Assembly (NCBI RefSeq): GCF_035920345.1
Contig: NZ_CP109149.1
Coordinates: 496,001-560,000 of the forward strand
Direction: 5' to 3'
DNA: 64,000 nt
Origin: Nocardia vinacea
GTDB taxonomy: Bacteria; Actinomycetota; Actinomycetes; Mycobacteriales; Mycobacteriaceae
Part shown: positions 1,076-18,447 of the stretch, piece after piece
How positions within the stretch are numbered: position 1 is the first letter of the stretch
Layout of the letters: each line of letters begins with the position of its first letter
Notes under the pieces: generated by a model
Seen by the model: the letters and a program-made list of their open reading frames with translations, nothing else
Database searches by the model: none
What the model was told of the DNA's origin: nothing
Translations under genes and position numbers: made by a program

Positions 1076-1395
1076 CCGACCGCTCATCGGGCCATCCCAT
1101 AGTCGCCCCTGGTCTGGAGGATGGTCGTAGCGGGTGTCGAGAGGTGCGACGCTTCGGCGGCGTCCCGCCCAGGTGACGTCCGGTAATCAGCGTAAGTCGT
1201 TTTGTGTCAAGCGGTTCGGTCGGTGCCCCGTGTGTCGTCGTCCCGGCATAGCGGTAGTGGGGTTGATTCCCGGCAGCGTGTAATCGGGTTGTGTGACGAC
1301 GGGCCGGGGCTGCCCGTGATTACCGGCGAGATCACCGGGAGGTGTCTCGATGCCGCGTGGGGCTCGCCCCGACCTCTCCGCTCGACCGGCCGCTG

Positions 1396-2748
1396 TCAGG
1401 CGGCTGTCGAGATCGTGGATGCCTTGATCGTGCCGTGGGTGGCGATGTGCGGGTTCCAGGGTTGCCCAGTGGTGACGACTGCATGTAGCTGGCGCAGGAT
1501 CGCCGCGGCGATCACGGCCTGAGCCTGGGTGGGAGTGAGCGGGTTGGTTTCTCGGGTGGTCAGATGCTGGTAGCGGGCGGCATAGACCGGGTTGGCGCGT
1601 TGGGTGCCCCACACGCCTCGCCAGGCGGCCAGCCGCAGCCCGGGACGGCCTTGGCCGGTGAGCCGGGCGCGGCCGGTGAAGGCACCGGACTTCTTCTCCC
1701 GGGGTGCGAGACCGGCGTGTTTGACCACGGCGCGGGCGGACGGGAACCGGGCCGGGTCACCAGTTTCGGCCAGGATCGCCGCGGCACCGACAGCGGACAG
1801 TCCGGTGATGGAGGTGACCAGCTCGGTGAGCTGGAGTTCATCGAGGATGCTGGTCATGCGGGTCTCGGTGTCGGCCAAGCGCCGCTTGCTCTCTCCCAGT
1901 CCTCCAGCAGCAGGTGCACCCGTTCCAGCGCGCCGCGCCGGTGCGCGAACACTCCGGCCGGATCATCCAGTGCCGCATAGAGTTTCCCGGTAATCCGAAA
2001 GCACGGTCGCTTCGCACCGCCGCGGGTGACCTCGCCACGGACGAGACGCTCGAGCCGGTCTCGGCCCAACCGGCGAGTGCGGGCGAAATCGCCGCCGTCG
2101 CGACCGCAGATCACCCGCAACGCCGCCATCCAGGTCCGGGATTTGAATGGCTGCTGGGCGGCATCGAGCGCGGCCGGCCACACGCACTCGAGCAGGGCTC
2201 GGATCTGCTGGACCTGGGCGACCATGTCCACCAGCAGTTGCTCGCGGCGGGCACCCAGATGCCGCAACCGGCCCCAGGTTTCATCCACGGGTTCGGGTGC
2301 ATAGCAGCGCAGCTGTGCGGTCAGTCGGGCGATCAGCACCGCGTCTTTCTCGTCGGTCTTGTCCGTGGTGAGGTCCTCGGCCCGGCGTGACCAGGCGGTC
2401 ATCACCGGTTGCACGCACACGAACAACATGTTCCGGTCGCCGGCCAACTCCTCCGAGCACCCGCCACCGATGCCCGGTCGGCTCACACGCCACCGTGACC
2501 CCGGTGAACCCCGCCGCGGCCGCACGGGCTCCGGCCCAGTCCAAAGCGATGCCCATGTCCCAGGCCCGGCAGTGGAACGTCCTGCGGGCCAGCACTTTCG
2601 AGTCATGATCGCAGACCGCGACCATCTGTTTGCGGTCGGCCAGATCGATCCCGACGATCGCGTTGGCTACTGGCACCAACGCCCGCAACCGGGTCAGCCG
2701 CACGTTGCGGTTGCGATCACCCCGGGACACACCGCTACCGTTACTCAT
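1396..2748 (-). pseudogene. IS110-family transposase, two frameshifts
   Basis: Three frames together make one full IS110 transposase. The first (from ATG at 2748) gives the RuvC-like DEDD part: GIDLADRKQM with the first Asp and VACEPTGHRWRVL with the Glu. An extra base near 2448-2456 (GGAGGAG where GGAGAG would keep frame) moves reading to a second frame carrying DLTTDKTDEKDAVLIARL with the remaining acidic residues. A missing base near 1885-1891 then moves it to the third frame, the Transposase_20 domain (ITGLSAVGAAAILAETGD, AVVKHAGLAP). The start has AGGAGG seven bases upstream. With two independent shifts the enzyme is almost certainly dead, unless these are assembly errors. Confidence 0.88.
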
Positions 2749-2811
2749 GGAACGTCCTCCTGCTCCTGCGATGGGACACCAAGCCCGACAAGCGCATCAG
2801 GAGGACGTTCC
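2749..2811 (-). promoter_or_regulatory. Hairpin sequestering the transposase ribosome binding site
   Basis: A perfect 14-bp inverted repeat (GGAACGTCCTCCTG at 2749-2762, CAGGAGGACGTTCC at 2798-2811) with a 35-nt loop abuts the transposase ATG at 2748. Read as minus-strand RNA, the AGGAGG ribosome site lies inside the 3' arm and pairs with CCUCCU of the 5' arm. That would block translation from transcripts that start outside the element, a strategy known in other IS families. It could equally be part of the IS110 left-end non-coding RNA. Confidence 0.7.
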
Positions 2812-2895
2812 CCGCGTCCATACAACCGACGCACTAAACGTCTTTCTATGCCGCGACCCGAGCGAATTCGGGTGGTGTTCTGGGCATCGTGGAGC

Positions 2896-3809
2896 ATGAG
2901 TACTTCATCGGATATCGACGTCACCTTCGCCGGTGACGATCTCGTACTGCGGCTGGCCAGTGCGGCCTACCTGGCCCGGTTCACCGGCAGCTCCCGTATC
3001 CATTGCGGATCTGATCTGCGCCTGTACTTCACCTGGTGCACCGAACGTCACTCCTGCCGCTGTTAGCGGTGCGCGCCGAGATCGAACGGTACGTACGGTG
3101 GATGCAGGAAACCCGCCGATTCAAACCCTCCACCGTTGCCCGCCGCACCGCGGTAGTGACCGGGTTCTACCGCACCTGCGTCATCGACGGCGTCACGGAC
3201 CACTCACCGGCCGAGTACGTCCGCCGACCCCGAGTCTCGAACGAATCACCGACACTGGGGCTTTCGCACCTACAGTTCGAAGCACTGCTCACCGCGGCGC
3301 GCGATTCCGCCAACCAATTCGACTTCGCACTCGTCGCGATGCTCGGACTGCTCGGGTTGCGGATCTTCGAGACCTGCAAGTCCGACGCCGAGGACATCGG
3401 CGAGGAACACGGCCACCGTGTACTGCGCGTAGTCGGTAAGGGTTCGAAGCTCGTTCTGATCCCGTTGCCGCCAGCGGTCGGACGAGCGATCGACCGCGCC
3501 ACCGGTGACCGCGACCACGGACCGATCCTGCTCAATACTCGAGGAAGGCGCATGGATCGGCATTGCGCCACACGACGACTGCGCCGCCTGGCCCAGGATT
3601 CGGCGATGCGGCTACCCCGCATGCACCCGCACATGCTGCGCCACACCTTCGTCACCACCATGCTCGATGCCGGAGTCGACCTACGAGACGTCCAGATCGC
3701 TGCCCGCCACGCTGACCCTCGCACTACCATGCGCTATGACCGTGCCCGAACCAATCTCGACCGCCACCCGAATTACATCCTCGCCGCCTACATGGCCTCG
3801 GGCACATAA
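2896..3809 (+). pseudogene. Tyrosine recombinase / phage-type integrase, one frameshift
   Basis: The gene begins at ATG 2896 (SDIDVTFAGDDLVLRLASAA) and reads into a stop near 3064. The rest of the protein continues in another frame from about 3046 (LLAVRAEIERYVRWMQETRR). One missing base near 3049 explains the break. The catalytic part shows the tyrosine recombinase residues: Arg in LLGLRIFE, Lys in GKGSK, HMLRHTFVTT (box II His and Arg), the second His in AARHADPRT and the nucleophile Tyr in TMRYDRAR. It ends HPNYILAAYMASGT. Whole length would be about 304 residues. Two truncated copies of its 3' end occur at 9797 and 16151. Confidence 0.85.
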
Positions 3810-3854
3810 CGACTCAACACACGCACATGCCGATTTGCGTGTGGTGCCGGAGTC

Positions 3855-3880
3855 TCCGAGCCGGCGGTGACCGGCTCGGA
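3855..3880. terminator. Hairpin terminator after the integrase
   Basis: A perfect 10-bp stem (TCCGAGCCGG at 3855-3864, CCGGCTCGGA at 3871-3880) with a 6-nt loop lies 45 bp after the integrase stop. There is no T-run, as is common for actinobacterial intrinsic terminators. A second, smaller inverted repeat (ACACGCA/TGCGTGT) lies just before it at 3819-3842. Confidence 0.5.
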
Positions 3881-4145
3881 TCGCCGGATCAGACGCGGAT
3901 CCGAGTTCAATGCTGCCCTGCCGAACACAGCAACCCGGTCTTACTCGAGGATGGGACACCAACGCTTCTCGGCGCGATTGCGCTATTCGTGGCGCCGCTT
4001 CCCTACCTGGATAGATCATTTCGCTGAAGGTATCGAACCCGGCGATCCTTGCAACCTCGATCGCGACGCCCGGTGATGAAATTGTCGACCTTCGAGGTTG
4101 TCAGTATGCTCGCAGGTGCTGGCCATCGAGTGGGGAGGAGGGGGC

Positions 4146-4460
4146 ATGACCACAGGTGATCCGTCGCTGAACGTGGTGCCGGACGAAGTCAAGGCCATCG
4201 GCAAGTTCGCGTATAACATTGCAGAGCAACTGAAGTCGGGCTCCACGTCGTTGGACCGGGAGGTTCAGGCGCTGTTCGGTACTTGGAGGGGCAGTGCGGC
4301 CGATGCCTATCGCACCGGCTGGGACGAGATGCAGGACGGCGCGCTGAAGATGTGGGACTCGCTCACCGACCTGGCGGAGAAGCTCGGCGTCACCGCGGCG
4401 ACGTACCAGGACCGGGACAGCACGAACGCATCGTCGTACAACTCGCTGCAGTTGGACTGA
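4146..4460 (+). CDS. WXG100-family protein (EsxA-like)
   Basis: This 104-residue protein is likely a small helical-hairpin substrate or chaperone of a type VII (ESX) secretion system. The W-x-G turn is TWRGSAADAYRTGW, near residue 46, between two helices. ATG 4146 follows a strong GGAGGAGGGGG ribosome site; an upstream in-frame ATG at 4098 is less likely. The next WXG100 gene begins five bases after the stop, and the two are followed by a toxin-like gene, so the pair probably helps to export that protein. No ESX core genes lie in the window. The base composition of 4.1-6.7 kb is visibly richer in A/T than its surroundings. Confidence 0.88.
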   Translation: MTTGDPSLNVVPDEVKAIGKFAYNIAEQLKSGSTSLDREVQALFGTWRGSAADAYRTGWDEMQDGALKMWDSLTDLAEKLGVTAATYQDRDSTNASSYNSLQLD

Positions 4461-4464
4461 CGTC

Positions 4465-4764
4465 ATGTCCTCGGAATTCGAGTTCGACCTCGACCACCTC
4501 GACAATGTGACGGCGCGTGCCCGTGGCTTCAAGGAGTTCGTTTCCGACAATCTGGATCAACTCGAAAGCAAAGTGCAGGGCCTAATACAGAGCGGGCAGT
4601 GGACAGGTACAGCTGCGACAGCCTACGCCGAGGAACACCAGGAATGGATGACGGCAGCACGCGAACTGGTCGAAGGGCTGGAGCAGATGCAGCGGGCGGC
4701 GCAGACGGCACATTCTTCGTATTCCGAAGCGTCAGAATTGAATCTGCGAATGGCAAGGGGATGA
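4465..4764 (+). CDS. WXG100-family protein (EsxB-like)
   Basis: The product is a 99-residue second WXG100 protein. The turn is QWTGTAATAYAEEHQEW, flanked by predicted helices (VTARARGFKEFVSDNLDQL before it, ELVEGLEQMQRAAQTAHSSY after). Members of this family pair as heterodimers, so the preceding gene is the natural partner. Its TGA (4762-4764) lies one base before the GTG of the toxin-like gene at 4766, which shows a tight operon. Confidence 0.88.
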   Translation: MSSEFEFDLDHLDNVTARARGFKEFVSDNLDQLESKVQGLIQSGQWTGTAATAYAEEHQEWMTAARELVEGLEQMQRAAQTAHSSYSEASELNLRMARG

Positions 4765-4765
4765 C

Positions 4766-5989
4766 GTGGTAGGCGTCGCGCCGCAAACCTACTACAGTGC
4801 CGCCGACGAATGTTATGCCATATCCAAGGCATTCCAGGATGTGTACAACCCCCTGCAAAAGGTCCTGCTTACCACGGGCGGGATGGCGGGTGGTTATCAA
4901 GCGATCAAGGCCTGGGCGTCAGGATACGATGAGCGGGTCGGTGCGTTCACCCTGTTTGCAACGAATTTTGCCCGCGCTTTGCAGCGACTCGGGGACGTGC
5001 TGACGGCCGCTGGTTACAATTGGGCCTGCGGCGAGTATAAGGCAAATCGGAGCCCAAACAAGGATGACAGGCCGACGCTTCCGAGGGCGCTTCCCACGGA
5101 GTTGCCATACGGCGCTGGCTCGGTGATCGGCGTCGCCTCGGCACACGCGAATAGTCGCGGGCTCGAATCAGAGTTTCCCGGCTTGTACGAAAAAGTGGTT
5201 GCTCAGGTCGCAAGTGGCGAGATCCCCGACAGCGACACTGACAAGTTCGACAGGGTAGCGAAGGCGTGGAAAACCTTTGCCTCTCACACCAGCGTATTCG
5301 GCGCGCAGACCCGCTTGCGATTGGTAGCCGAAGGCCTGGAACAAACATATTCTTCCGACGCTCCGGAGGATATCCCATATCTGGTAGACCACCTGCGCAC
5401 TCTCGCGACCAGTGCAGGCGATATCGAGTTGGCCTCCTCTGATTTCGCCGCATCGACCGAGAAACTATCTGCTGCATTATCGACGATGCGGACGGATATC
5501 AATACCCAGTTTACGGCTGTCGTTGTAAGTGCATCTGTAGTCATCGCGGTCTCAGCAGTGGTAATCCGCAATCCCCAGTCGGTGACGTTGGAAGGAGTGG
5601 CTCTCGAAACGGCCGCCGCCGCGATCGCCAGGGCAGTCGGAACTTTTTTGGGAGGGTTGTCAGGAATCGGTTTTTCGACTGGGGTGCTCGCGACCGGTGG
5701 ATTGCTTACCATCGCAGGTCTTGGAGTCCTGATAACATCGATCGATGACTCCGCCGAAGGCGAGCCGGAATGGGATCAAACCGAGGAACGGACGCGAAAC
5801 CCTGCGCAGGACAAACCCCTGACCAATAGGGACATAAGGGAACTCAAGGCTCGCGGTCATGACCCACACGATATAAAGCCAGACCCTCCGTCCCGATACG
5901 ATCTATACAAAGATGGAAAGGGAAATGTGTATTATAAGCGAAAAGGCGGGGCGGGTGCAGGAGAATCGACGGGGATCAGATTGCGATGA
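4766..5989 (+). CDS. Type VII-associated polymorphic toxin (type 33-like C-terminus)
   Basis: This 407-residue protein has three parts. The N-terminal ~110 residues are helical and WXG100-like (YYSAADECYAISKAFQDVYN), as expected for ESX export. The middle has hydrophobic stretches at about 252-270 and 285-332 that could span a membrane. The C-terminus (NRDIRELKARGHDPHDIKP, then YDLYKDGKGNVYYK and GAGESTG) resembles, from memory, the polymorphic toxin type 33 domain. Start GTG 4766 directly follows the WXG100 stop. The next gene overlaps by ATGA and looks like an immunity gene. Target and activity of the toxin domain are unknown to me. Confidence 0.75.
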   Translation: MVGVAPQTYYSAADECYAISKAFQDVYNPLQKVLLTTGGMAGGYQAIKAWASGYDERVGAFTLFATNFARALQRLGDVLTAAGYNWACGEYKANRSPNKDDRPTLPRALPTELPYGAGSVIGVASAHANSRGLESEFPGLYEKVVAQVASGEIPDSDTDKFDRVAKAWKTFASHTSVFGAQTRLRLVAEGLEQTYSSDAPEDIPYLVDHLRTLATSAGDIELASSDFAASTEKLSAALSTMRTDINTQFTAVVVSASVVIAVSAVVIRNPQSVTLEGVALETAAAAIARAVGTFLGGLSGIGFSTGVLATGGLLTIAGLGVLITSIDDSAEGEPEWDQTEERTRNPAQDKPLTNRDIRELKARGHDPHDIKPDPPSRYDLYKDGKGNVYYKRKGGAGAGESTGIRLR

Positions 5990-6384
5990 CTGCTGAGGAG
6001 CTTTCCGAAGTGACCGTGTCGCTGAAATTGACCGGCACATTCGATCCAGACGAGGTGACCGCGGCGCTAGGACTGGCGCCGTTCAATTACTGGCGGGCGG
6101 GGCAACAAGGGGCGGCTCCCAAACTGCGTAGGAGTTCCGATGGCTGGGTTGTCCGACTGGAGGTGTCCTTCGGAGAGGTCGGCGAGCAGGTAGACCGTGC
6201 CGTTGAGAAACTTGCGCAAGTTTCCACGCGGTTGGGTCACGTTCTCTCGAATCAGGGAGTAACCGGGTGCCTGACCGTTGCTGTGGATGCCGGCGAGGAG
6301 ATTTGGCCAACCATCACGTTATCGGCAGCGACGCTGGCGTTTCTGGCGTCATTAGGGTTGTCACTCGATATCGATGTCATCTAG
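5986..6384 (+). CDS. DUF4279-like protein, probable immunity protein
   Basis: The 132-residue product has the DUF4279 pattern: an N-terminal strand and turn (VSLKLTGTFDPDEVTAALGL, then APFNYWRAGQQG), a central helix (VDRAVEKLAQVSTRL) and the C-terminal pattern TLSAATLAFLASLGLSLDIDV. ATG 5986 overlaps the toxin stop (ATGA), so translation is coupled and levels should match the toxin. DUF4279 proteins often sit beside secreted toxins. Neutralisation of the neighbour is inference from position. Confidence 0.72.
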   Translation: MTAEELSEVTVSLKLTGTFDPDEVTAALGLAPFNYWRAGQQGAAPKLRRSSDGWVVRLEVSFGEVGEQVDRAVEKLAQVSTRLGHVLSNQGVTGCLTVAVDAGEEIWPTITLSAATLAFLASLGLSLDIDVI

Positions 6385-6393
6385 GAGTCGACC

Positions 6394-6717
6394 GTGATCG
6401 ATGATTCAGACCGCGAAATTCCGGTAATTCGTACCGAGGTGGCCAGGCATCCCGAAAATGGGCTGAGAGAAAATCGTTTCCACCGGGTCGGCGCGAGTTG
6501 GAGCCTGGAAGACGAGGTCAATGCGTTCCTGGATGAAATGAGTGCTGGCGGTAGGTCGGTGGCGATGCACAGCGAGCCCGGCGGCGAGCTTCGGGTGGAG
6601 GCCGCGTTGGCTGGCAGAAGTTTTCCGTCTATGTATTTCGATCCTCGGCTTCTGAGGCGCCTTGCCTCAGCAGGCATGTCACTGAGGATCACGACTGGGC
6701 CGCGCACAGAAACGTAG
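6394..6717 (+). CDS. Hypothetical protein, possibly a diverged DUF4279 paralogue
   Basis: GTG 6394 follows GGAG and lies nine bases after the previous stop, so it is part of the toxin operon. The 107-residue product ends with MYFDPRLLRRLASAGMSLRI, which parallels the end of the upstream DUF4279 protein (LSAATLAFLASLGLSLDI). The N-terminus (REIPVIRTEVARHPENGL) does not match well. It may be a second, diverged immunity protein. The downstream stretch 6718-7114 holds no gene I can support. Confidence 0.55.
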   Translation: MIDDSDREIPVIRTEVARHPENGLRENRFHRVGASWSLEDEVNAFLDEMSAGGRSVAMHSEPGGELRVEAALAGRSFPSMYFDPRLLRRLASAGMSLRITTGPRTET

Positions 6718-7114
6718 GTCCGGTTCTGTCGGTCCTCTGGAGTGTGGAGGCCGCATTATGCGGCCTCGTGGACCACCCCGGCCCATCCGCCACTCAAGCT
6801 GCCGGATCTGGCGAACTGAGCGGCTTTGCAGCGCCTGAGCCGTCCGCTCGATTTCAGTGCGTTCGTCCAGTACATCCTGTTGCCGCACATGGGCATTCGC
6901 CGATCGCTACGCTGCTTCGTTGGTCCAGGGCGAATCTCCAAGATCAAGTAAACCAAGCTCGCCACCCCACCGGACCGGATTCCGCATAGCCGGAAAGATC
7001 ACCATCCGCGTGCACAAATGCCGATGAGCGTGCATATCTCGGGCGGCGCGTGCGGACCCGGCACTACGCAGTACTGCCGATCGAGTTGCCCGCGTATGTC
7101 TTCGGCAATGTTCA

Positions 7115-8008
7115 TCAGGGTCGGGCGGTGTGAGCGGAGTACTGCCATGCACCTTCACGCTCTAGCCAGGTGGTGAAATCCAGGAGTTCCGGATGGCATC
7201 GCCGCAGCGACACGATGTCGGCATTCCAGCCTCCGCCGTGGTTGGCGAACCGGTAGCCGGCGAGGGCGTCGGGGTCCTTGTCCGACAATGCTTCTCGTGG
7301 GATTGCTCGGTATTCGATCGGTTGTCCGAGGGACCGGCTCATGGCCTCGGTGATCTCGGTCATGGTCAGCTCGTCGCCCGCCAGTTCCACTGCGGCTCCG
7401 ATGTATTCGTCCGGGTGAGTGAAAGCCCGTGCAGCGAAGACACCGATGTCGGTACCCGCGATCAGCTGCACGGGAACGTCCGGATGGATGACATCGGTGA
7501 GTACTCCCTCGCGCAAGCCGAAGCGGGGGTCGAGCTGGTTCTCCATGAAGCGCACCGGGCGTAATGCGGTGGTCGGCAGGCCGAGCCGAGTCGAGTATCT
7601 CTCCAACTCCGCCTTGCTCTGCCAGCGGCGAATGCCGTGATCGGCGTCCGCAGCGCCGACCGAGGCGTAAACGAAGTGAGCAACACCCGCTGCCGCGGCT
7701 GCATCCGCGACATTGCGGCCGAGCCTCAGTTCATCGGCGACGGTGAAGCCGGGAGGTGTGCCAGGGTATCCCACGGTCGGTTGCACGCTGAACACCCCGT
7801 GAACACCCGCCGCCGCCGTATCCAGCGTGGTTCGGTCGCCCATATCGCCAGGCGCCAGTTCCGCACCCGCCTCTGCCAACACCCGAGCACCGGCCGTGTC
7901 CGGGTCACGCACCAGCGCACGCACCCGCCAACCCGCCGCCAGCAGTGCACGAGCCGTTGCGCCGCCCTGGGTGCCCGTCGCTCCGGTAACCAACACGATG
8001 TCCGACAT
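7115..8008 (-). CDS. NmrA-like NAD(P)-binding SDR-family oxidoreductase
   Basis: The 297-residue protein has an N-terminal Rossmann fold with VTGATGTQGGATARAL, then DMGDRTTL and YASVGAADADHGIRRWQSK, as in atypical SDRs of the NmrA/QOR2 type. These bind NAD(P) and act as redox sensors or as reductases of quinones or other small molecules. The catalytic Tyr-x-x-x-Lys of classical SDRs is absent. It is divergent from a TetR gene and shares twin GGGGA-N3-TCCCC operators with it, so it is probably the regulator's target. Confidence 0.85.
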   Translation of the reverse strand: MSDIVLVTGATGTQGGATARALLAAGWRVRALVRDPDTAGARVLAEAGAELAPGDMGDRTTLDTAAAGVHGVFSVQPTVGYPGTPPGFTVADELRLGRNVADAAAAAGVAHFVYASVGAADADHGIRRWQSKAELERYSTRLGLPTTALRPVRFMENQLDPRFGLREGVLTDVIHPDVPVQLIAGTDIGVFAARAFTHPDEYIGAAVELAGDELTMTEITEAMSRSLGQPIEYRAIPREALSDKDPDALAGYRFANHGGGWNADIVSLRRCHPELLDFTTWLEREGAWQYSAHTARP

Positions 8009-8053
8009 CGCAGCCTCCTCGAGTAGCGCTGTTCGCCTGTATCGGCAATAAGT

Positions 8054-8101
8054 GGGGATTGTCCCCGTTTAACCGTCGGCTACGATACGGGGACTATCCC
8101 C
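8054..8101. promoter_or_regulatory. Twin TetR operators between the NmrA-like and TetR genes
   Basis: Two 13-bp palindromes, GGGGATTGTCCCC at 8054-8066 and GGGGACTATCCCC at 8089-8101, share the form GGGGA-N3-TCCCC followed by GTTT. They are 35 bp apart, centre to centre. They fill the 112-bp gap between divergent genes. The second lies 19 bp before the TetR start, which suggests autorepression, and the first lies in the leader of the NmrA-like gene. Confidence 0.75.
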
Positions 8102-8120
8102 GTTTTGCAATCGGAGTGTA

Positions 8121-8690
8121 ATGACACCAGCCCCGAGTAGACCGGCTCGCGCCGACGCGCTGCGCAATTACGAGCGGCTCATCACCGCCGCCACCAATGC
8201 CTTCGCCGAACACGGCCCGCAGGTGCCGCTGGACGACATCGCACGCGCCGCCGGGGTCGGCAATGCCACGCTCTACCGCCATTTCCCGACCAGACAGGCA
8301 CTACTGGAAGCGGTCCACCACGACCACATAGAGGCACTGGTCCACCGAGCCGGCGACTTGGCCACGGCACACGCCCCCGCCGAGGCGCTCAGGTTGTGGC
8401 TCGACACCGTTGTCGCACAGGGCAGCGCCACCCGCGGCCTGGCGGCCTCGCTGCTCGCAGTCATAGGCACATCGACCGAATCTTGGTGCCGGAAAGAAAT
8501 ATTCGCCACGGCAACCGGCCTTTTGCAGCGCGCTCAGGATGCGGGCGAGATCCGTTCCGGGCTGACCGCACCCCAGTTACTGAAGCTCGTCAACGCGATA
8601 GCCCTTGCCACTGAAGGAGATCCGGACCGAACCCAGCAAGCCCATACGCTGCTGGACTTCCTCTTCGACGGCCTTCGCATCCAAGCGTGA
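8121..8690 (+). CDS. TetR-family transcriptional regulator
   Basis: This 189-residue repressor has its helix-turn-helix in residues ~15-60 (LITAATNAFAEHGPQVPLDD, then IARAAGVGNATLYRHFPTRQALLEAV), followed by a ligand-binding helical domain. It is divergent from the NmrA-like gene and has its two likely operators in the shared gap. The effector is unknown. ATG 8121 follows GGAGTG. Confidence 0.9.
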   Translation: MTPAPSRPARADALRNYERLITAATNAFAEHGPQVPLDDIARAAGVGNATLYRHFPTRQALLEAVHHDHIEALVHRAGDLATAHAPAEALRLWLDTVVAQGSATRGLAASLLAVIGTSTESWCRKEIFATATGLLQRAQDAGEIRSGLTAPQLLKLVNAIALATEGDPDRTQQAHTLLDFLFDGLRIQA

Positions 8691-8838
8691 CACTGTGCAC
8701 GCGACAGACCTGTGCGCAACTCGAACGGACTGGCCGAACGTTCGCCGATGCCGCTGATCGCGCTGTTCGGAATGGCACATACGGCGCGGCCCGGCCCGGG
8801 ATAGAACGGTCCTGGCCGGGCGGGGATTGGTGTGCCGG

Positions 8839-9002
8839 TCAGTTCGCCACGTTGTCGAATGTGCCGGCCTGGTAGGAGCCGCCTGTGGTCTTGGTGATCA
8901 CCAGCAGCCGGTTGCGGCGTTGGTCATGGCGACCAGGTAGACCAGTGCGGCGATCTGGTCATCGTCGTAGTGCTTGCGCACCAGGAACTCCCGCCGACTC
9001 AC
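8839..9002 (-). pseudogene. Carboxymuconolactone decarboxylase-like (AhpD-type) remnant
   Basis: Read on the minus strand, codons from about 9002 give REFLVRKHYDDDQIAALVYL then VAMTNA. After a frameshift near 8905 they give NRLLVITKTTGGSYQAGTF before TGA at 8839-8841. This matches the C-terminal pattern of CMD-domain proteins (FDDEQIAALVYAIA...NRLMVTTR...GSYQPG). Only the last ~50 codons remain and no start is visible. The remaining stretch between the TetR gene and arfB (8691-8838, 9003-9235) holds nothing I can name. Confidence 0.6.
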
Positions 9003-9235
9003 AGCAAAGATCTCACCGTGACGGACATCGCCTTCGACTCAGCAATTGGGCGGGAAACATCCTCTTCTAGCCGCATACCGCGCTGTTCTGGTCTGGGCTG
9101 GCCGAATAGCGTGTGTCGGTGTGCCTGCTTAGGTCGCTGCCAGCGACGAGAAGATGCAGGCGGGTACTTGCGAGCACGGGCCCGTTCGACAACGACTGTG
9201 CCGCCGATACCCCGACCTGTGGCGCTGCCCGTCGG

Positions 9236-9664
9236 CTAGTCGTCGGGGGAGGCACGGCGGTTGCGCTTGGTGACGCCGCGCCGTTTCTTCGCGGCGATGC
9301 GACGTTCCTTTGCTCCGCGCGAGGGCTTGGTGGCGCGGCGGACGGGTGGCGGTGCGGCAGCGGCGTCAGCCAGTAACGAGGCCAGGCGTTCGCGGGCGGC
9401 CGCGCGGTTCTGCAGCTGTGCGCGTTGCTCCGATGCGGCGATCGTGAGCACCCCGTTGACCAGGCGGGTGGCCAGGCGGTCGAGCATCCGGGTGCGCAGC
9501 CACTCCGGCACGGAGGGCGAGTTGGCGAGGTCGAACGACAGCTCTACCCGGCTGTCGGTGGTGTTGACGTGCTGCCCTCCGGGACCGGACGACCGTGAGA
9601 ACCGCTCGCGTAACTCGGACGCGGGTATCACCAGCACCCGAGTCACGGTCAGGTCCTCTGCCAT
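9236..9664 (-). CDS. arfB: ArfB-type peptidyl-tRNA hydrolase (RF1-domain, ribosome rescue)
   Basis: The 142-residue protein contains the class I release-factor GGQ loop at residues 29-31 (SRSSGPGGQHVNTTDSRVEL). It lacks the codon-recognition domains of RF1 and RF2. The tail is strongly basic (RATKPSRGAKERRIAAKKRR and beyond), as in ArfB/ICT1, where it enters the empty mRNA channel of stalled ribosomes. It should release nascent chains from non-stop complexes. The start chosen is ATG at 9662-9664; a longer upstream frame exists but would run across the antisense integrase fragment. Confidence 0.9.
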   Translation of the reverse strand: MAEDLTVTRVLVIPASELRERFSRSSGPGGQHVNTTDSRVELSFDLANSPSVPEWLRTRMLDRLATRLVNGVLTIAASEQRAQLQNRAAARERLASLLADAAAAPPPVRRATKPSRGAKERRIAAKKRRGVTKRNRRASPDD

Positions 9665-9796
9665 GATCCGATGCCGCTCTTTCCGATCCGCGAGTCGACA
9701 AGGCCACGTCGGTCTAGTTGCGACTGAATGGTGACCTTCTCGTTCACGATAGCGACGACCTTGTCGACGTGTAACAAGCAGGCCGTCCGTCCGTCT

Positions 9797-9973
9797 ATGC
9801 TGCGCCACACCTTCGTCACCACCATGCTCGATGCCGGAGTCGACCTCCGCGATGTTCAGATAGCTGCCCGCCACGCCGACCCGCGTACCACGATGCGCTA
9901 TGACCGTGCTCGGACCAATCTCGACCAGCATCCGAATTACATCCTCGCCGCCTACATGGCCTCGGGCACATGA
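9797..9973 (+). pseudogene. Integrase 3' end, second copy (truncated)
   Basis: From ATGCTGCGCCACACC at 9797 the sequence follows the integrase at 3633-3809 closely for 59 codons: box II HTFVTTMLDAGVDLRDVQ, second His AARHADPRT, nucleophile MRYDRAR and the end ILAAYMASGT. Upstream of 9797 the match stops abruptly. The shared sequence continues past the stop (ACACACGCACATGCCGA at about 9980). It lacks the N-terminus, the first Arg and the Lys, so it cannot be active. Confidence 0.85.
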
Positions 9974-10096
9974 CAGCTCGACACACGCACATGCCGAATG
10001 TCGGATGACCTTCCGTAGCAATCCGTCACCGAAATTGGGCATTTGTCCAGCGATGTCGTTCAGTGTGGAGCTATTCGACAAGGAGGGAGGCAGGCG

Positions 10097-10273
10097 ATGG
10101 CCGAGAAGCCCACATTCGACAGGGTCGATAATCTGAGCGGCTTGCAGGCACCAAAGGTAAACGACCTGGGGTCGAGTGTCAGCGTGTTGGGGGTGAATAA
10201 CCTGGCCGATCGACCCGGTCTGCTGGCACCGAGCGACGCCAGCACCAAGACGGGTGACGAAGAGAAGAAGTAG
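10097..10273 (+). CDS. Small hydrophilic protein, unrecognised
   Basis: ATG 10097 follows an excellent ribosome site (AGGAGGGAGG at 10081-10090). The 58-residue product (MAEKPTFDRVDNLSGLQAPK, then VNDLGSSVSVLGVNNLADRP and an acidic-basic end DEEKK) has no cysteine, no signal peptide and no membrane segment. It lies 120 bp after the second integrase fragment, so it may be the first gene of a cargo block. No family is recognised. The strong ribosome site is the main reason to accept it. Confidence 0.5.
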   Translation: MAEKPTFDRVDNLSGLQAPKVNDLGSSVSVLGVNNLADRPGLLAPSDASTKTGDEEKK

Positions 10274-10506
10274 CGGCGGCTCGTCTAGTCGAGTTCGCGG
10301 ATCTCCGAAGCGCGTTGCCCGGCGCTCTGATTGGCTAGCCGGGCAACGTCCTGGACCTGGCCGGCTTCACCATCGATGACGCCGGGCGGCCGTCGCTCGA
10401 GCAGTTCCGGGCGGCGCCACCCCCCGCTGTCGGCGCAGGCCCTGGCTCTGGTGGTGCGGGTCGGCCTCGCCACCGCCGACGTCCGTCTCGTGTGAGCTGC
10501 TGCGCG

Positions 10507-11409
10507 TCAGTCCGGCAGCCAGTGCAGCTCGTGTGCCAGGGTTTTGGCGACGGTACGGATGCGGCGGTGTAGTGGTGACTGCACGCGCGGGAGGACCAGG
10601 TGGATGGTCAAGGTGGGTGCGCCCTGCAGCGGTCGCCACGTGAGACCGGCCGTTTGTGTCGTGACCGCGGCTTCACCGGCCGGGGCGAGGGTGAGCCCGT
10701 CGCGTAGGTCACGCTGAGACATGTCGAAAGAGACTGCGGGCGTGTGGAATCGGGGGTTCGGCCGGGTGCCGCGGAACAGGGCGGACAGCTGATCGTGGAC
10801 CACGGGGTTGGCCGTACGGTCGGGGAGTCGCAGCGGATACGCGGCCGCATCGGCGATCTCGATCTCCGGGTGTTCGGCCAGCGGATGATGCTGTGCCAAT
10901 TGGACCCCGACGCGCACACGCCGCAGCAGGAACCGGCGCACGCCACGACCCGGCTGTTCACCGCGGGTGATCCCCGCATCGATGCGGCCGTCGGCGACCG
11001 CGGGGGAGATCTCCGGTGTCGCCATCGGGACCGCGCCGACCTCGAGTCCCGGGCTGCTGCGAATGAGCCTGTCCACCAGGGCCGGTGCCGTCTCGGCCCC
11101 CGTGCTGAGGCTGTATCCGATGCGCAGCGTGCCCAGTTCACCGGCCCCCGCATTCCGGGCGGTGTCCCATGCCCGGTCCAGCGCCGCCAACGCGGGCGGC
11201 GCGGACTCCGCCAAAGCCGCACCGGCCGTGGTCAATACGACGCTACGCGTGTTACGAACCAGCAGGGCAGTACCGAGGTCCGCCTCCAATCGGCGCATCC
11301 GGGCACTGAGCGCGGGCTGCGCGATACCGATCCGTGCGGCCGCGCGGGTGAAGTTCAACTCCTGCGCCAGCACCAGAAAGTACCGCAGGCTCACCGTATC
11401 CGGCGCCAC
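10507..11409 (-). CDS. LysR-family transcriptional regulator
   Basis: The 300-residue protein begins with the LysR helix-turn-helix (SLRYFLVLAQELNFTRAAAR, then IGIAQPALSARMRRLEADLG) in residues ~5-65. A periplasmic-binding-like effector domain follows. GTG 11407-11409 is chosen because GGGAGGG lies just upstream; an in-frame ATG 75 bases earlier has no such site. It is divergent from the EthD-like gene, which by the usual logic of LysR pairs is its likely target. Gap 10274-10506 shows no gene. Confidence 0.88.
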   Translation of the reverse strand: MAPDTVSLRYFLVLAQELNFTRAAARIGIAQPALSARMRRLEADLGTALLVRNTRSVVLTTAGAALAESAPPALAALDRAWDTARNAGAGELGTLRIGYSLSTGAETAPALVDRLIRSSPGLEVGAVPMATPEISPAVADGRIDAGITRGEQPGRGVRRFLLRRVRVGVQLAQHHPLAEHPEIEIADAAAYPLRLPDRTANPVVHDQLSALFRGTRPNPRFHTPAVSFDMSQRDLRDGLTLAPAGEAAVTTQTAGLTWRPLQGAPTLTIHLVLPRVQSPLHRRIRTVAKTLAHELHWLPD

Positions 11410-11540
11410 ATGCCCTCCCTGCCGATTGATAACGATCCGTTCTGAGTCTATCGCGTACCGGTCTTTCCCTCGACCGCACATCAAGCCCTAACCTGCGCAT
11501 ATGACGATTCAACCGACCGCGGTAGATGCAGGAGGCAGTC

Positions 11541-11852
11541 ATGCATAAGACACTGGTCCTATATCCCGAGCCCGCCGACCCTGACCACTTCCGCGACTAC
11601 TACGTGAACAACCACCTTCCGCTGGTCATGAAGTGGCCCGGCGTGCTTGCGTGGCGCTACAGCTTCGACGTGGCGGCGACCAACGGAGAAGCGCCGTATT
11701 TCGCGGTCTTCGAAGCCGACTTCGCTGACGCCGCCGCCTTGGCTGCGGCGCGGGCGTCGCCGCAAGGCCAGCGGCTGGCCGCCGATGTCGTCAACTACGC
11801 CACCGGCGGTGTGGTCGTCATCGACTATCCGGTGCAGGACGGCATCGACTGA
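11541..11852 (+). CDS. EthD-domain protein
   Basis: This 103-residue protein of the dimeric alpha/beta-barrel EthD family starts MHKTLVLYPEPADPDHFRDY with the typical YVNNHLPLVMKWPGV motif. Such proteins are small ring-opening, decarboxylating or accessory factors; the substrate cannot be told. ATG 11541 follows GGAGG. It is divergent from the LysR gene with a 131-bp shared gap, and is closed by a strong hairpin. Confidence 0.85.
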   Translation: MHKTLVLYPEPADPDHFRDYYVNNHLPLVMKWPGVLAWRYSFDVAATNGEAPYFAVFEADFADAAALAAARASPQGQRLAADVVNYATGGVVVIDYPVQDGID

Positions 11853-11858
11853 GGCAGG

Positions 11859-11893
11859 ACGGCACGCTCCGGGACGCGTTCGGAGCGTGCCGT
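11859..11893. terminator. Strong hairpin terminator after the EthD-like gene
   Basis: A perfect 13-bp stem (ACGGCACGCTCCG at 11859-11871, CGGAGCGTGCCGT at 11881-11893) with a 9-nt loop lies six bases after the stop codon. No T-run follows. The region from here to the LysE gene (11894-12455) contains no gene I can support. Confidence 0.75.
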
Positions 11894-12455
11894 TGCGGCC
11901 AGGTCCCGGCTATCGGCGGAACGCCGTTCCCGGTTGCCGGTTCGTTGAGCGTCAAACGTGGGCCGATGTCCTGGCCGGATGTCCCGGTGGTTGATGCGCG
12001 CGTGCGGCGCGACGGCCGGGGCGGCAGCCCCACGTCCGTCACCGACGACGACCCGGCGGCGACGGACCGGACTGGCGTGCGGTCGCTGCCGCGGTTGGCC
12101 GCTTGTCATTCCCCGCGCCGGGCACTACTTCCCACTCGCGCGGCCAGCGGAGTTCTCCGTGCTGATCCTGGACGCAGCTGCTGCCTGCCAGAACCGATCG
12201 AATACCTGACCACCAGGGCCGTAAACGTGAGCGCCTCCCCTGATCCCGGAAACAGGATTGCAGGCTAGCGGCTCCTCGCGAGAAGCATTGCAGCGCGAAG
12301 CATCCTGTCATGCCGCTGGGCGCGTGGTCGTGAACGTCCGCATCTGCCGATTCCGCGATGTTTCAACGGCGGGTTCTCCCGACAGCAACGGTTACGGTTC
12401 CAGTGCGTCGGAACTGGCTCGCGACAAATAGCCAGCTGCACCCCAGGATGAGAGC

Positions 12456-13097
12456 ATGATCGAAACCACGGCGGTGTTGGGAGTGGCCGCGACCGAGTTG
12501 GGAATGGTGCTGACGCCGGGCCCGAACATGATGTATCTGGTGTCGCGCACCATATCGCAGGGACGACGAGCGGGTCTGGTATCGCTATCGGGTGTGGCCG
12601 TCGGATTCATCGTGTATCTCGTGGCCGCCACCGTCGGGATTACCGCGATCTTCGCGGTGGTGCCGGGGTTGTATCTGAGCATGAAGCTGGCCGGCGCAGC
12701 TTATCTGGCGTACTTGGCGTGGAAGACGTTGCGCGGCGGCATCTCTGTGTTCGAGCCCTCCGATCTGCCCGCCGACTCCGCGCGCAGGCTCTTCAGCATG
12801 GGGCTGGTCACCAACCTGCTCAATCCCAAGATCGCGATCATCTACATGGCGTTGATCCCGCAGTTCGTGACCCCAGAACAGGGGCGAGTCTGGTTGCAGA
12901 GCCTGCTGCTGGGCGCAGTGCAGATCGGTATCGCGCTGACGGTCAACGGCTTGATCGTGCTGGGAGCCGCCACAATCGCGGCGTTCCTGACCGGCCGCCC
13001 GCTCTGGATGCGGGCACAACGTTGGGTGACCGGCACAATGCTCGGCGTCGTCGCCGTTCTACTAGCTACCGACCGGACCCGCCCGGTTCCGGCCTAG
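12456..13097 (+). CDS. LysE/RhtB-family amino-acid or metabolite exporter
   Basis: The 213-residue inner-membrane protein has about six hydrophobic segments and the family signature near the N-terminus (ELGMVLTPGPNMMYLVSRTI, then ISQGRRAGLVSLSGVAVG). NLLNPKIAIIYMALIPQFV is the second conserved block. It probably exports an amino acid or related compound with proton exchange; the substrate is unknown. AGGA lies upstream of ATG 12456. Confidence 0.88.
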   Translation: MIETTAVLGVAATELGMVLTPGPNMMYLVSRTISQGRRAGLVSLSGVAVGFIVYLVAATVGITAIFAVVPGLYLSMKLAGAAYLAYLAWKTLRGGISVFEPSDLPADSARRLFSMGLVTNLLNPKIAIIYMALIPQFVTPEQGRVWLQSLLLGAVQIGIALTVNGLIVLGAATIAAFLTGRPLWMRAQRWVTGTMLGVVAVLLATDRTRPVPA

Positions 13098-13140
13098 GCT
13101 GACCGACGCGAATAACACGCTGCTGGCAAGTGCGCGGTAA

Positions 13141-13231
13141 TGCCGAGTTCAGGGCGTTCGCAGGAGCGTGTACACGATCTCGGCTGCACCGATGAATTCC
13201 GGGTGGATCCGTCGTCTATACCGCTGGATAC
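13141..13231. repeat. 91-bp repeat, copy 1 (upstream of the LLM oxidoreductase)
   Basis: This segment aligns without gaps to 16341-16431 with 83 of 91 identical bases. On the minus strand both copies keep an open frame ending ...IHPEFIGAAEIVYTLLRTP (copy 2 IHAKVIGAAEIVSTLLRTP) at TGA 13149-13151. Three of the seven codon differences are silent. It therefore looks like the duplicated 3' end of a lost minus-strand gene. It also forms the leader of the LLM gene at 13252. Confidence 0.8.
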
Positions 13232-13251
13232 CAACAGACAGGAGTCCAGAC

Positions 13252-14055
13252 ATGACGAAACCGTTTCGATTCGGGGTCGTTGCCCCGCTCAGAACTGACC
13301 TGCCGACGTGGCGAGATCGCGTGCGCCGCATCGCCGATAGCGGCTACTCGACGCTGCTGGTGCCCGACTTCCCTCAGATGCAACCGGCGCCCGGCCCCAT
13401 GCTGGCCACCGTCGCGGCCCTTACCGACCTGCGTGTGGGTACCTGGGTATATGCCTCCCCGCTACGCCCGGCCTGGATGATGGCGTGGGAAGCGCACTCG
13501 CTGTCGCTACTGACTGACGGTCGTTTCGAGTTGGGAATCGGCACCGGCAGGCCCGGAATCGAGGACGAGCTGCGCGAACTGGGACTGCCCGTGGTCCCGC
13601 CGAGCGAGCGGCTGGCCCAGGTGCGTGAGACCATCAGAATGCTGCGAGATCTCGATGGCCCCGACCGTCGCACGCCTGTGGTGATGGCCGTGCGCGGGCC
13701 CAAGGCCCGGGTGCTGGCGGCCGAGGTCGCAGACACGGTCACCTTCGCGCTGATGCCAAATGAGTCTCGGGCCGAAGTCATACAGCTGGCACGCGACGTC
13801 CGCGCGCTCGGGGATGTCGAGCTCGCGCTGCATGTGCCGATTATCGGCGACACGGTCGCGCCGTTCATGGCGCCTCCCGATACCGACCCTGCTGCGCTTG
13901 CGGCGGACTCGCTGGCGATACTTCCGGATGACCCGGCGGCCGCCGCCGAGGAAATCCAGCGGCGGCGGGAGGAGATCGGCTTCTCCTATTTCGTGTTCGG
14001 CGCCGACTTCGCCGACAAGTTCGCTCCGGTCGTCGCCGAGCTCGCCGGACGCTAG
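13252..14055 (+). CDS. LLM-class (F420/FMN) oxidoreductase
   Basis: The 267-residue protein of the luciferase-like TIM-barrel class shows GVVAPLRTDLPTWRDRVRRI at the start, the substrate and cofactor region VGTWVYASPLRPAWMMAWEA and the block LSLLTDGRFELGIGTGRPGI. Members use F420 or reduced FMN; the short length and actinobacterial setting favour F420, but this is inference. ATG 13252 follows GGAGT; an upstream in-frame ATG at 13168 lies inside the 91-bp repeat. Confidence 0.85.
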   Translation: MTKPFRFGVVAPLRTDLPTWRDRVRRIADSGYSTLLVPDFPQMQPAPGPMLATVAALTDLRVGTWVYASPLRPAWMMAWEAHSLSLLTDGRFELGIGTGRPGIEDELRELGLPVVPPSERLAQVRETIRMLRDLDGPDRRTPVVMAVRGPKARVLAAEVADTVTFALMPNESRAEVIQLARDVRALGDVELALHVPIIGDTVAPFMAPPDTDPAALAADSLAILPDDPAAAAEEIQRRREEIGFSYFVFGADFADKFAPVVAELAGR

Positions 14056-14199
14056 TTGGCCTGGCGGGGTGTGCAACATCCGCTCGTAGCCGATTATCGA
14101 GTGGTAGGCACTGATCAGCGCTGGGATCATAGGGCAAGCGTTTGGTAGTAGGTGTCCACGGGAGGGAATCGCGTATGCCCACGGCGGGGGAGCTGAGCG

Positions 14200-14721
14200 T
14201 CACGGCTGCTGATTCCGGACCGTTCGCAGCCAGTCCCCGATCATGACGAGATCCGTGTCATCGAGACCGCGGGCGGCGTCGACGAGGTGGAGCAGGGCAT
14301 GCCCGGGATGGTTCGCGCTCACCCAGTGCCGGTCGGCATCGGTGATCTCGTCATCGATCCAGGCGAATGGGCGTCCGGCCGCCCAGTCCACCAGATTTCG
14401 TGTCTTCCAGTGCAAGCCGATCCGCCGGTCTTCTCGATATTGACGTTCGTCGGTGGACCGCGACCACGCGACCCGGGGCAGCGGCGGTAGTCCGATCCGC
14501 GTCGCGATCTCCGTATTCGCCTCCTCTTCCCACGCAGTCGCCCAGACGAGCACACACGGCAGCGCCGAAAGCGCAAGCCCGGCCGCGCGTTTCAGCCGCG
14601 CGAAGTGCCACTCCGGATCCGGAATCGGGGGTCGCGGGCGCGGATCCCCGCCGATCGGCAGCAGCGGTCCGTCGATATCCAGGAAAAGTAGTGGGAGGGC
14701 CGTGCGGTCGCTCACCCGCAT
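14200..14721 (-). CDS. HAD-superfamily-like protein (secretion or housekeeping role unknown)
   Basis: The product is 173 residues long. The HAD motif I is near the start: LPLLFLDIDGPLLPIGGD with DxDG in place of DxDG/T-V. Motif II-like VLVWATAWEEEAN and the late acidic WIDDEITDAD support a HAD hydrolase fold. ATG 14719-14721 overlaps the stop of the upstream membrane-protein gene (TGATG), so the two are translationally coupled. The substrate is unknown. Confidence 0.75.
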   Translation of the reverse strand: MRVSDRTALPLLFLDIDGPLLPIGGDPRPRPPIPDPEWHFARLKRAAGLALSALPCVLVWATAWEEEANTEIATRIGLPPLPRVAWSRSTDERQYREDRRIGLHWKTRNLVDWAAGRPFAWIDDEITDADRHWVSANHPGHALLHLVDAARGLDDTDLVMIGDWLRTVRNQQP

Positions 14722-15410
14722 CACCTGCCGTCGAGCGAGCCGATCAGTATCCAACCGGCGACGCCGATGCACAAGGCGCTTATCGCGATCTCTATGCCGA
14801 GACCGACCCCGGGCCGCAGGCCGTAGGCCAAGGCATCCGTCGTCATGCCTACCGGCACGACGCCGATGAACATCCAGGCGAACGTACGGAAGGCGAGCAT
14901 GAACAACCCGTCCCACCAGCCGAACAACAGTCCCCACAGCAGAACACCGAGGCCGAAAAAGGCCAGGTACAGCCAGCAGCCGAGCGTCTCGCCGGACTTC
15001 GGCAGGAACCACTCGCTCCCGTCCGTCACCTCCACGCCGACGACCTCCCCGCGCCAGAGTCGCAGTTCGGCCGGTTGCCCCTCCCGTGCCTTACCGTAGA
15101 AGCTCGACGACACCTCGCGGGTCTGCCGGGACCCGTCGGTCCGCTGCCAGGTGACCTGGTAGTGGGTGGTCGTGGTCGTGCTCATGTGGCCGTCGGAGTC
15201 GGTCTGCGTCGTCGTCGTGGTGTAGGTGCGCCGCCCCGCGATGGAACCCCGCTCGCTGGCCAAACAGTCGCCCGCACTCGCCCCGCACCCCACGGCCGCC
15301 CGGAACTCCCGGGTCTGCCGGTATGGGCCAGCGGCGGAGGCGAGCGCTATGACAAGCACACCCAGACCGAGCGCGACGATGATCCACTGCCGAAGGGAAC
15401 GCTCACACAA
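14721..15410 (-). CDS. Membrane protein, unrecognised, coupled to the HAD gene
   Basis: The protein has a first membrane segment ([20 protein letters not shown]), then an extracytoplasmic region with a Cys pair ([10 protein letters not shown]) and a Thr-rich strand ([14 protein letters not shown]). Three to four more membrane segments follow in the C-terminal half ([20 protein letters not shown] and after). I chose TTG at 15408-15410 because TACGGAGGATCC lies just upstream. An ATG at 15482 or a start near 15572 would also be in frame. The layout resembles DUF3592-type proteins, but I am not sure. Confidence 0.6.
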
Positions 15411-15572
15411 GGATCCTCCGTACGGCAGTCGACGGAGCCTCACAACCCACCCCCACGCGATCCCGCGCAACGTCGCGACCATGTCCGCCCCTGCTCGGTC
15501 CGGCCACTGTTCATCGGTGCACCTCCAGTGAAAGTCATTGGCGTCGACCTCCTTACAGGAAACAACCACCAC

Positions 15573-16150
15573 GCATGCCGAAAGGTTGGGTCACCCGTTC
15601 CGCCCCGCGCAGCCCATCCGTCGAGCGGGTCGCGACCTTCTACCCGGAGGTCACCATTGCCTTCACCGTCGCCGACGAACGGCACCGTCACGTGCCGCTG
15701 CTGTTGTCGCCGTTCTCGTACTCGACGTACCGGGGGAGCTGAGCCTCGTCGGCCGCATCCTGCTCGAATCACCCCGCCAGCTGCGACCCCGCACCACCAC
15801 TACCGCACAACATCACCCACCGATCCCGGGACCTGCGCCCACCGATATACACCGGACCCCGGACGCCACCGGTCCATGATCGGTCGCACCCTGGCGCGCA
15901 TCGGCGCCGGTGACCACCGGGATGTGGTGGCCCGCAAGTGTTTCCGATGCGGACACCAACGTCACCCGACTGCCACCAGCACCGCAGAAAGGCATCGGGC
16001 CATGCTGACCAGCTGGAAGCTGATGTCCATCACAACAGGTTGGGTCTTATCGCCACACGACCTGCGATCACCGTCGCGAACCCCCGGACCGAGAATCGCC
16101 CCCGTCAAACGCAACACGAACCCGACCGCACACGGCCACTGCGGAGACAA
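15573..16150. other. Degenerate region without a supported gene
   Basis: Short coding-like stretches occur, for example plus-strand [20 protein letters not shown] then [19 protein letters not shown] at about 15618-15740, but frames break and no start, stop and ribosome site agree. A long plus-strand frame (14367-16319) crosses the antisense of two real genes and is rejected as a gene. The segment ends at the third integrase fragment. Confidence 0.4.
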
Positions 16151-16319
16151 GCCACACCTTCGTGACCATCGTGCTCGACGCGGGAGTCGGCTTGGAGACG
16201 TACAGATCGCCGCCCGTCATGCCGACCCGCGCACGCCCATGCGCTACGACCGAGCCCGAACGAAGCTCGACCGGCACCCGAACTACATTTCGGCCGCCTA
16301 CATGGCCTCCGGCACATGA
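16151..16319 (+). pseudogene. Integrase 3' end, third copy (truncated and frameshifted)
   Basis: From GCCACACCTTCGT at 16151 the sequence follows the end of the integrase: HTFVTIVLDAGV, then after a one-base deletion near 16190 the frame GDVQIAARHADPRTPMRYDR, ending ISAAYMASGT at TGA 16317-16319. Like the second copy it begins at the box II codons and no upstream integrase sequence is present. It is more diverged than copy 2. The 91-bp repeat copy 2 starts 21 bp later. Confidence 0.8.
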
Positions 16320-16340
16320 CATTTCAACCGTGCACTACCT

Positions 16341-16431
16341 TGCCGAGTTCAGGGCGTTCGCAGGAGCGTGGACACGATTTCGGCTGCACCGATGACTTTT
16401 GCGTGGATCCGTCGTCGATACCTCTGGATAC
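16341..16431. repeat. 91-bp repeat, copy 2 (upstream of the FAD hydroxylase)
   Basis: Ungapped 83/91 match to 13141-13231. It sits between the third integrase fragment and the leader of the flavin hydroxylase at 16504. The minus-strand frame ends at TGA 16349-16351 with ...IGAAEIVSTLLRTP. Confidence 0.8.
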
Positions 16432-16503
16432 ACCGACAGCGGTGAGTCAGGGCAGGAACAAACGATCCGGGACAGTGATCCGGACGGGCGAGCAGGAGGC
16501 GCA

Positions 16504-17727: not shown

Positions 17728-17880
17728 GCGTCACATAACGTCCCGAGCAGGACTGTTGACTGGCAGACGACTTCACGAACATCCGCATCTGCCGAATTGA
17801 GTATGGTGCCGGGTCTTGAGCCTGTTGTATCACCCGGTCCATCAGTGCTCGGAGCGGACAATCGAGCGAAGAGAAGAGTG

Positions 17881-18426: not shown

Positions 18427-18447
18427 TGATGGGGTAGGCTGGTTCGG

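Follow-up and report, generated by a model that had tools for sequence, protein, structure and literature searches.

A putative integron-like gene-cassette array linked to an Xer-type tyrosine recombinase and dif-like cores in Nocardia vinacea

The window analysed here is a stretch of 64,000 nucleotides of Nocardia vinacea DNA (contig NZ_CP109149.1), positions 496001-560000 of a 10.36-Mb chromosome. It carries a tyrosine recombinase (integrase) gene, the 3' end of which recurs twice downstream, and a series of short sites resembling dif. We consider, with fairly high confidence, that this region is a gene-cassette array, integron-like in its working and linked to an Xer-type tyrosine recombinase and dif-like cores. 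The three integrase copies of the window are:

2896-3809, plus strand: integrase copy A (Pfam Phage_integrase), frame-disrupted, with an open frame at 3036-3809 (257 aa)
9797-9976, plus strand: integrase 3' remnant B, a direct repeat of the end of copy A
16151-16319, plus strand: integrase 3' remnant C, a direct repeat of the end of copy A

The original prediction stated that the last ~57 codons (~180 bp) of the integrase are repeated on the same strand at 9797 and 16151, with nothing shared ahead of the repeats, and both statements were borne out by base-level alignment. Positions 3633-3833 match 9797-9997 at 91% identity over 201 bp without gaps (E 5e-76) and 16151-16328 at 82% over 179 bp with one gap (E 1e-45). 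The remnants B and C begin at integrase positions 3633 and 3640, no integrase match was found in the 70 bp upstream of either start, and homology to copy A extends past the stop codon by 24 bp in B and by 9 bp in C. Copy A, earlier called long, is the longest of the three and is nevertheless itself disrupted, with 257 aa in its open frame versus ~304 aa in the second copy of this genome (8835276-8836187) and in many relatives. Additional integrase fragments occur elsewhere in the same genome.

A dif-like core, 18 bp past the integrase stop codon, consists of inverted arms around the 6-bp centre TGCCGA. The arms read approximately AACGCAC ... GTGCGTT in Nocardia and CCGCTCA ... TGAGCGG in Micromonospora, and the centre has two forms, TGCCGA (A core) and TGCCGC (C core). 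In 27 of the 33 integrase ends compared, TGCCGA stands closely behind the stop codon and the sequences diverge after it. A first weight matrix, for which the window supplied 10 of the 33 training sites, gave 12 window matches scoring at least 14, all on the plus strand, and none in 10 shuffles. With refined A and C matrices we found 14 window cores at this threshold, all on the plus strand between 2849 and 19910, and none on the minus strand or beyond 21 kb of the window. Of the sites in the other 33 loci with integrase sequence, 168 lie on the strand of the integrase and 9 on the opposite one, and many of them belonged to the matrix training sets. A tRNA-borne attachment site was considered and rejected, as the window has no tRNA. 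The cores of the window and the blocks bounded by them are:

2849-2854, plus strand: C core, 47 bp ahead of the integrase start (score 14.1), an insertion sequence (IS) having taken the place of its left arm
3828-3833, plus strand: A core after the integrase stop (score 39.9)
7019-7024, plus strand: A core (score 27.5), left edge of a block duplicated on the same chromosome
7020-9074, plus strand: duplicate block with an NmrA gene (7115-8008, minus strand) and a TetR gene (8121-8690, plus strand), and a C core at 8749 inside
9069-9074, plus strand: core variant AGCCGC, right edge of the 7020-9074 block, missed by the matrices
9992-9997, plus strand: A core (score 32.8)
12311-12316 and 12345-12350, plus strand: C core and A core, 34 bp apart (scores 36.0 and 28.6), block edge in genomes G053 and G119
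13141-13146, plus strand: A core (score 30.4)
16341-16346, plus strand: A core (score 23.1)
16347-17789, plus strand: FAD-binding monooxygenase cassette (gene 16399-17727)
17790-17795, plus strand: A core (score 35.0)
18229-18234 and 18318-18323, plus strand: C core and A core, 89 bp apart (scores 29.8 and 26.2)
18306-18976, plus strand: block shared with G005 (97.2% identical), A core to A core
18972-19915, plus strand: duplicate block with a HEAT-repeat open reading frame (ORF), from the A core at 18972 to the C core at 19910

Comparison of these blocks with other sequences suggests that the DNA between cores moves as blocks. The segment 7020-9074 has a duplicate at 1.365-1.367 Mb of this chromosome (99.6% identity), which begins one base inside TGCCGA and ends past AGCCGC. 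The duplicate of 18972-19915 (99.4% identity) is at 1.369-1.370 Mb, beginning at the T of TGCCGA and ending past TGCCGC. Beyond the edges of both duplicates the DNA is unrelated. Matches to other genomes behave similarly: 12308-13142 corresponds to a G053 segment (98.6%) from C core to A core, with an IS-like insert at the A core of G053; 10960-12317 corresponds to a G119 segment (96%) ending one base past TGCCGC, its other end being the contig limit; and 493.6-494.9 kb of the N. vinacea genome matches G053 (97.3%), again from C core to A core. Among the matches listed for the FAD cassette, ten start exactly at 16341 and many others inside the gene, and its upstream DNA is unrelated in the loci L128 and L137.

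Related loci also differ in their cassettes. In Nocardia terrae (L171) a cassette, X, lies directly behind the integrase core, and in L079 (G050) 1937 bp stand between them. Three segments, of 2.2, 3.6 and 0.7 kb, distinguish the Nocardioides loci L188 and L189. The 3.6-kb segment has both junctions at TGCCGA or TGCCGC, the 2.2-kb segment has its left junction at one of these centres and its right junction off any core, and the 0.7-kb segment has its junctions at or near a reverse-strand core-like sequence. Each of the ~6-kb blocks, which had been regarded as single units added in turn, appears instead to hold several cassettes, as further cores lie inside and the parts recur separately elsewhere. 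Matches of LysR and EthD genes were dropped as cassette evidence, these being common paralogous genes. In G053, the arrays L072 (10035-10692) and L073 (13254-13911) have a 658-bp block in common (99.7%). It begins at a core, the point at which the two copies part is not near one, and the block possibly represents one gene start joined to different ends.

The recombinase gene, which has a C core ahead of it and an A core behind it, is on the best reading of these sequences itself a cassette. L084 (G012) and L078 (G022) have both flanks in common (94-96%), and L078 contains 915 bp more at one core, which prove to be a frame-broken integrase copy. The empty form of the site, for which the original prediction had pointed to related genomes, was thus found, L084 being empty and L078 filled with the whole integrase. 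Furthermore, in 9 of the 14 copies with a 5' end a C core precedes the integrase by 45-99 bp (control 2.1%).

Integrase DNA was matched at 1e-3 in 32 of the 59 genus genomes searched, several of the matches being short and weak, and the fetched regions hold full and partial copies with internal deletions and scattered starts. In 22 copies the 3' end is present and the 5' part missing or interrupted; the 5' junctions of the 19 that were compared occupy 17 positions between 3523 and 3767, and the three outside this comparison start at 3753, 3757 and 3775. The original prediction had asked whether partial copies always start at the same base; they do not. Remnant C and L081, a G036 fragment, have upstream sequence in common and so represent one event, and 6 of the 33 loci retain only 5' or middle parts of the integrase. 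Copy A is 90.1-90.2% identical to copies in other species and 90.9% to B, and C is nearest to the other full copy of the genome (88.3%, support 0.926). The best reading is that the partial copies are decayed integrase cassettes, probably remnants of separate insertions, which for A and B is unproven. A pseudo-core at HPHMLRHT inside the integrase was considered as an explanation for the starts at 3615-3640 and discarded, given a best in-gene score of 0.4 with the site matrices.

The integrase domain is Phage_integrase, and the best NCBIfam models are XerC/XerD-type, at scores below their cut-offs (e.g. 113 bits versus 279). Models of the IntI family fell far short of theirs (TIGR02249, 43.6 bits versus 265; PRK15417, 34.7 versus 435), and the nearest solved structure by sequence is XerD (1a0p). 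Of the catalytic R-K-H-R-H-Y set of Xer-type tyrosine recombinases, R156, K182, H246, R249 and Y281 are invariant and H272 nearly so in 17 sequences. The recombinase is accordingly Xer-type, not IntI.

Relatives of the integrase are found in many actinobacterial genera. Of 80 named loci, 74 were examined (five were not listed and one was too short), and TGCCGA lies within 75 nt past the integrase stop in 43 of these (control 4.9%), TGCCG[AC] in 48 (control 11.1%). In 73 named non-Nocardia loci, matrices trained on Nocardia gave an integrase-strand bias of 105:23 for A cores and 124:9 for C cores, 17 of the C sites coming from one locus. At 1e-90, a class-wide protein search found the recombinase in 10 of 296 genomes, including that of N. 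vinacea, and the distribution at that cut-off is therefore patchy. No plasmid match was obtained at 1e-60, and the phage matches at 1e-50 comprise 60 records, 59 of them below 60% identity. In the Nocardioides loci L210, L216 and L241, cores lie on the minus strand to the left of the integrase and on the plus strand to its right, as if these arrays grew outward both ways.

In the N. vinacea genome, a sequence-only model placed cores at no fewer than 98 positions at E<=10 (150 of 7734 candidates were scored). Fifty of them form seven clusters: 20 at 481-516 kb, 7 at 646-655, 7 at 1367-1373, 4 at 4821-4834, 4 at 5811-5819, 6 at 7848-7857 and 2 at 9425 kb, each confined to one strand except that at 7848-7857 kb (5 and 1). 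A second array of this chromosome (G000:C1:1366933-1372899, L263) has seven cores and no integrase among the matches listed there. A core-pattern search matched 131 of 148 genus genomes; the reversed-pattern control also matched many genomes, one coding sequence was a recurrent false positive, and only genomes far above the control, such as G095 (27 versus 1) and G119 (19 versus 0), are informative.

Closely spaced cores show a preferred order. In 713 kb there are 41 pairs less than 200 bp apart, 37 of them C-then-A, 3 A-then-C and 1 C-then-C, with most spacings being 34, 56-58, 67-69, 80-81 or 89-92 bp. Members of the 68-bp class share a hairpin that covaries little (2 of 18 pairs changed on both sides, which 327 of 500 shuffles equalled), and no shared hairpin was found in the 90-bp class. 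Helical phasing of the spacing (34, 57, 68, 80 and 91 bp) was rejected, since steps of ~11.4 bp do not fit 10.5. In Nocardioides psychrotolerans (L241), six C cores follow one another at intervals of exactly 34 bp in each of two runs (13623-13793 and 17105-17275), which look like tandem empty sites.

We propose the following mechanism, which builds on the observed cores, their common orientation, the block edges at cores, the filled and empty integrase site and the cassette differences between relatives. Enzymes of this family would catalyse strand exchange at the borders of the 6-bp centre (TGCCGA or TGCCGC), the hexamer presumably being the overlap, so that DNA between two same-strand cores could be released in circular form or be taken up at another core. 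The recombinase gene would move as a cassette, from C core to A core, and its old copies would decay while retaining the core next to their 3' end, which is why integrase ends would recur at cassette borders. A and C cores would also interact with each other, and the two overlap classes could allow double-reciprocal cassette exchange besides excision.

Other explanations have to be weighed against this gene-cassette array. The original prediction placed the crossover in the integrase gene itself, near box II, and assumed that ~6-kb circles carrying 'site plus integrase end' were added serially. The starts of B and C at 3633 and 3640, together with 8 of the 19 junctions lying in 3615-3640, would fit such a site, yet the 19 junctions occupy 17 positions, the core sits past the stop codon (3828-3833), the best core score within the gene is 0.4 versus cut-offs of 13-14, and both ~6-kb blocks hold further cores and inner parts that recur alone. 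We regard an in-gene crossover as highly improbable. What persists of that proposal is a recombination-type site at the integrase end with separately mobile cargo beyond it, the site lying outside the gene; the observations it had itself named as contrary were largely made, in the form of scattered starts and of a filled and an empty site for the whole integrase. It is likewise scarcely credible that homologous recombination, IS elements and chance alone produced the shared blocks and edges. Arrays do contain IS110 and another IS-like insert, and much of the cargo is common in the genus, but the exact core-to-core edges with unrelated DNA outside and the strand coherence of 168:9 argue against this.

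Somewhat less remote, and still unlikely, is a mobile unit composed of C core, integrase and A core, of which the short C-A pairs (34-92 bp) would be internally deleted, MITE-like derivatives, genes looking like 'cassettes' merely since elements landed on either side of them. The integrase did move as a C-to-A unit, internal deletions are common, and the short pairs form length classes with shared sequence. On the other hand, whole gene blocks move from core to core, and by eye the short spacers have no clear similarity to integrase ends beyond the arms. The host XerC/XerD might instead move the units, as in Acinetobacter dif modules, with the array integrase as a passenger. The dif-like cores, the Xer-type recombinase and the array at 1.367-1.373 Mb, with no integrase nearby among the matches listed, agree with this; we consider it quite improbable, as a dedicated integrase adjoins a core in many genera and is itself core-bounded.

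Several points weigh against the gene-cassette array as well. The integrase of the window is frame-disrupted. The window scores are partly circular, the first matrix having been trained in part (10 of 33 sites) on the window itself, and a minus-strand match scoring 13.5 is present at 4203. No site of at least 14 was found in three of the 33 loci with integrase sequence (L056, L057, L060), TGCCG[AC] is missing from the 75 nt past the stop in 26 of the 74 named loci, and of the 9 window A cores only 2 are preceded by a C core at less than 100 bp. Each of the two best blocks has an A core at one end and a C core at the other, for which simple excision between identical overlaps is inadequate. A broad block list has only 25 of its 215 edges at 25 bp or less from a core (3.2% expected at random), and most of its rows, being common paralogous genes, were set aside as cassette evidence. 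The filled and empty integrase site is a single example, 8 of the 19 junctions cluster at 3615-3640, of which just the pair of C and L081 reduces to one event, and a short tree groups A and B as sisters (support 0.707), so these two may have a common origin.

The pdif modules of Acinetobacter have sites in opposed orientation, in contrast to the arrays described here, whose cores share one orientation and which are linked to a dedicated recombinase. In both systems cargo is bordered by Xer-type sites (for pdif, PMC12907356 and others), and pdif modules are described as moved by XerC/XerD. There is also a likeness to arm-less phage tyrosine integrases, with related recombinases (~47-48% identity among the matches listed) in Arthrobacter and Gordonia phages. 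These integrate one prophage, whereas the present family adjoins arrays of cargo blocks. A PDB match of the array recombinase is 5vfz, Gp33, the Brujita integrase.

With integrons the system has in common a same-strand site array adjoining a tyrosine recombinase, small cargo blocks edged at sites, and some arrays without a recombinase nearby. IS110-family elements are inserted at its sites, which resembles what PMC11187229 reports of IS1111-type elements and the attC sites of integrons. It differs in that the recombinase is not IntI, the recombinase gene, itself a cassette, has the array behind its 3' end, and cassettes may carry several genes on both strands. Integron attC sites fold as conserved imperfect hairpins; here a shared hairpin was seen in the 68-bp class, with little covariation, and not in the 90-bp class.

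The IntegronFinder 2.0 paper reports no complete integrons in Actinobacteria (PMC9024848). We found no description of the present system in the accessible portions of the open-access literature, including PMC13277306, PMC9024848, PMC8138268, PMC3414803 and PMC11187229, subscription journals and preprints being outside this scope, and it may have been published elsewhere. We lean towards the view that Actinomycetota possess an independently evolved integron analogue, with an Xer-type recombinase, TGCCGM cores and a mobile recombinase cassette that seeds new arrays. This suggests that actinobacteria have their own integron-like means of gathering and shuffling genes. If so, an IntI-independent parallel cassette system would alter the picture of integron-free Actinobacteria and offer Nocardia, Nocardioides, Micromonospora and others a route to gather toxin, redox and transport genes. 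Whether cassette evolution requires single-strand sites to fold could then be tested on a natural example, and the two overlap specificities might be put to use in a recombination tool.

The remaining features of the window are:

1186-2848, minus strand: IS110-family element with its reading frame in three pieces (Pfam Transposase_20, DEDD_Tnp_IS110), adjoining a C core
3834-7018, plus strand: toxin-operon cassette with WXG100 genes (4098-4460, 4465-4764) and an Ntox33 toxin gene (4766-5989)
5986-6384 and 6394-6717, plus strand: remaining genes of the toxin-operon cassette, a DUF4279 gene and a further ORF
12351-13140, plus strand: LysE cassette
13147-16150, plus strand: cargo with a luciferase-like monooxygenase gene (13168-14055) and a HAD gene (14200-15012, minus strand)
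14721-15572, minus strand: ORF with a weak, sub-threshold DUF2500 match, within the cargo 13147-16150

A leader of ~100 bp starting from TGCCGA is common to different cargo genes (window 13141-13241 and 16341-16439; G000:C1:7850992-7851082), and two of its three genomic copies follow an integrase 3' remnant. All three IS110-family copies compared (window 1186-2848, L068 12889-14557 and L073 11557-13225) lie between an apparent core left arm and TGCCGC. Another IS-like insert, at 12592-13984 of L072, begins with TGGCACCCC and splits a core into T and GCCGA; L084 and L073 contain similar DNA.

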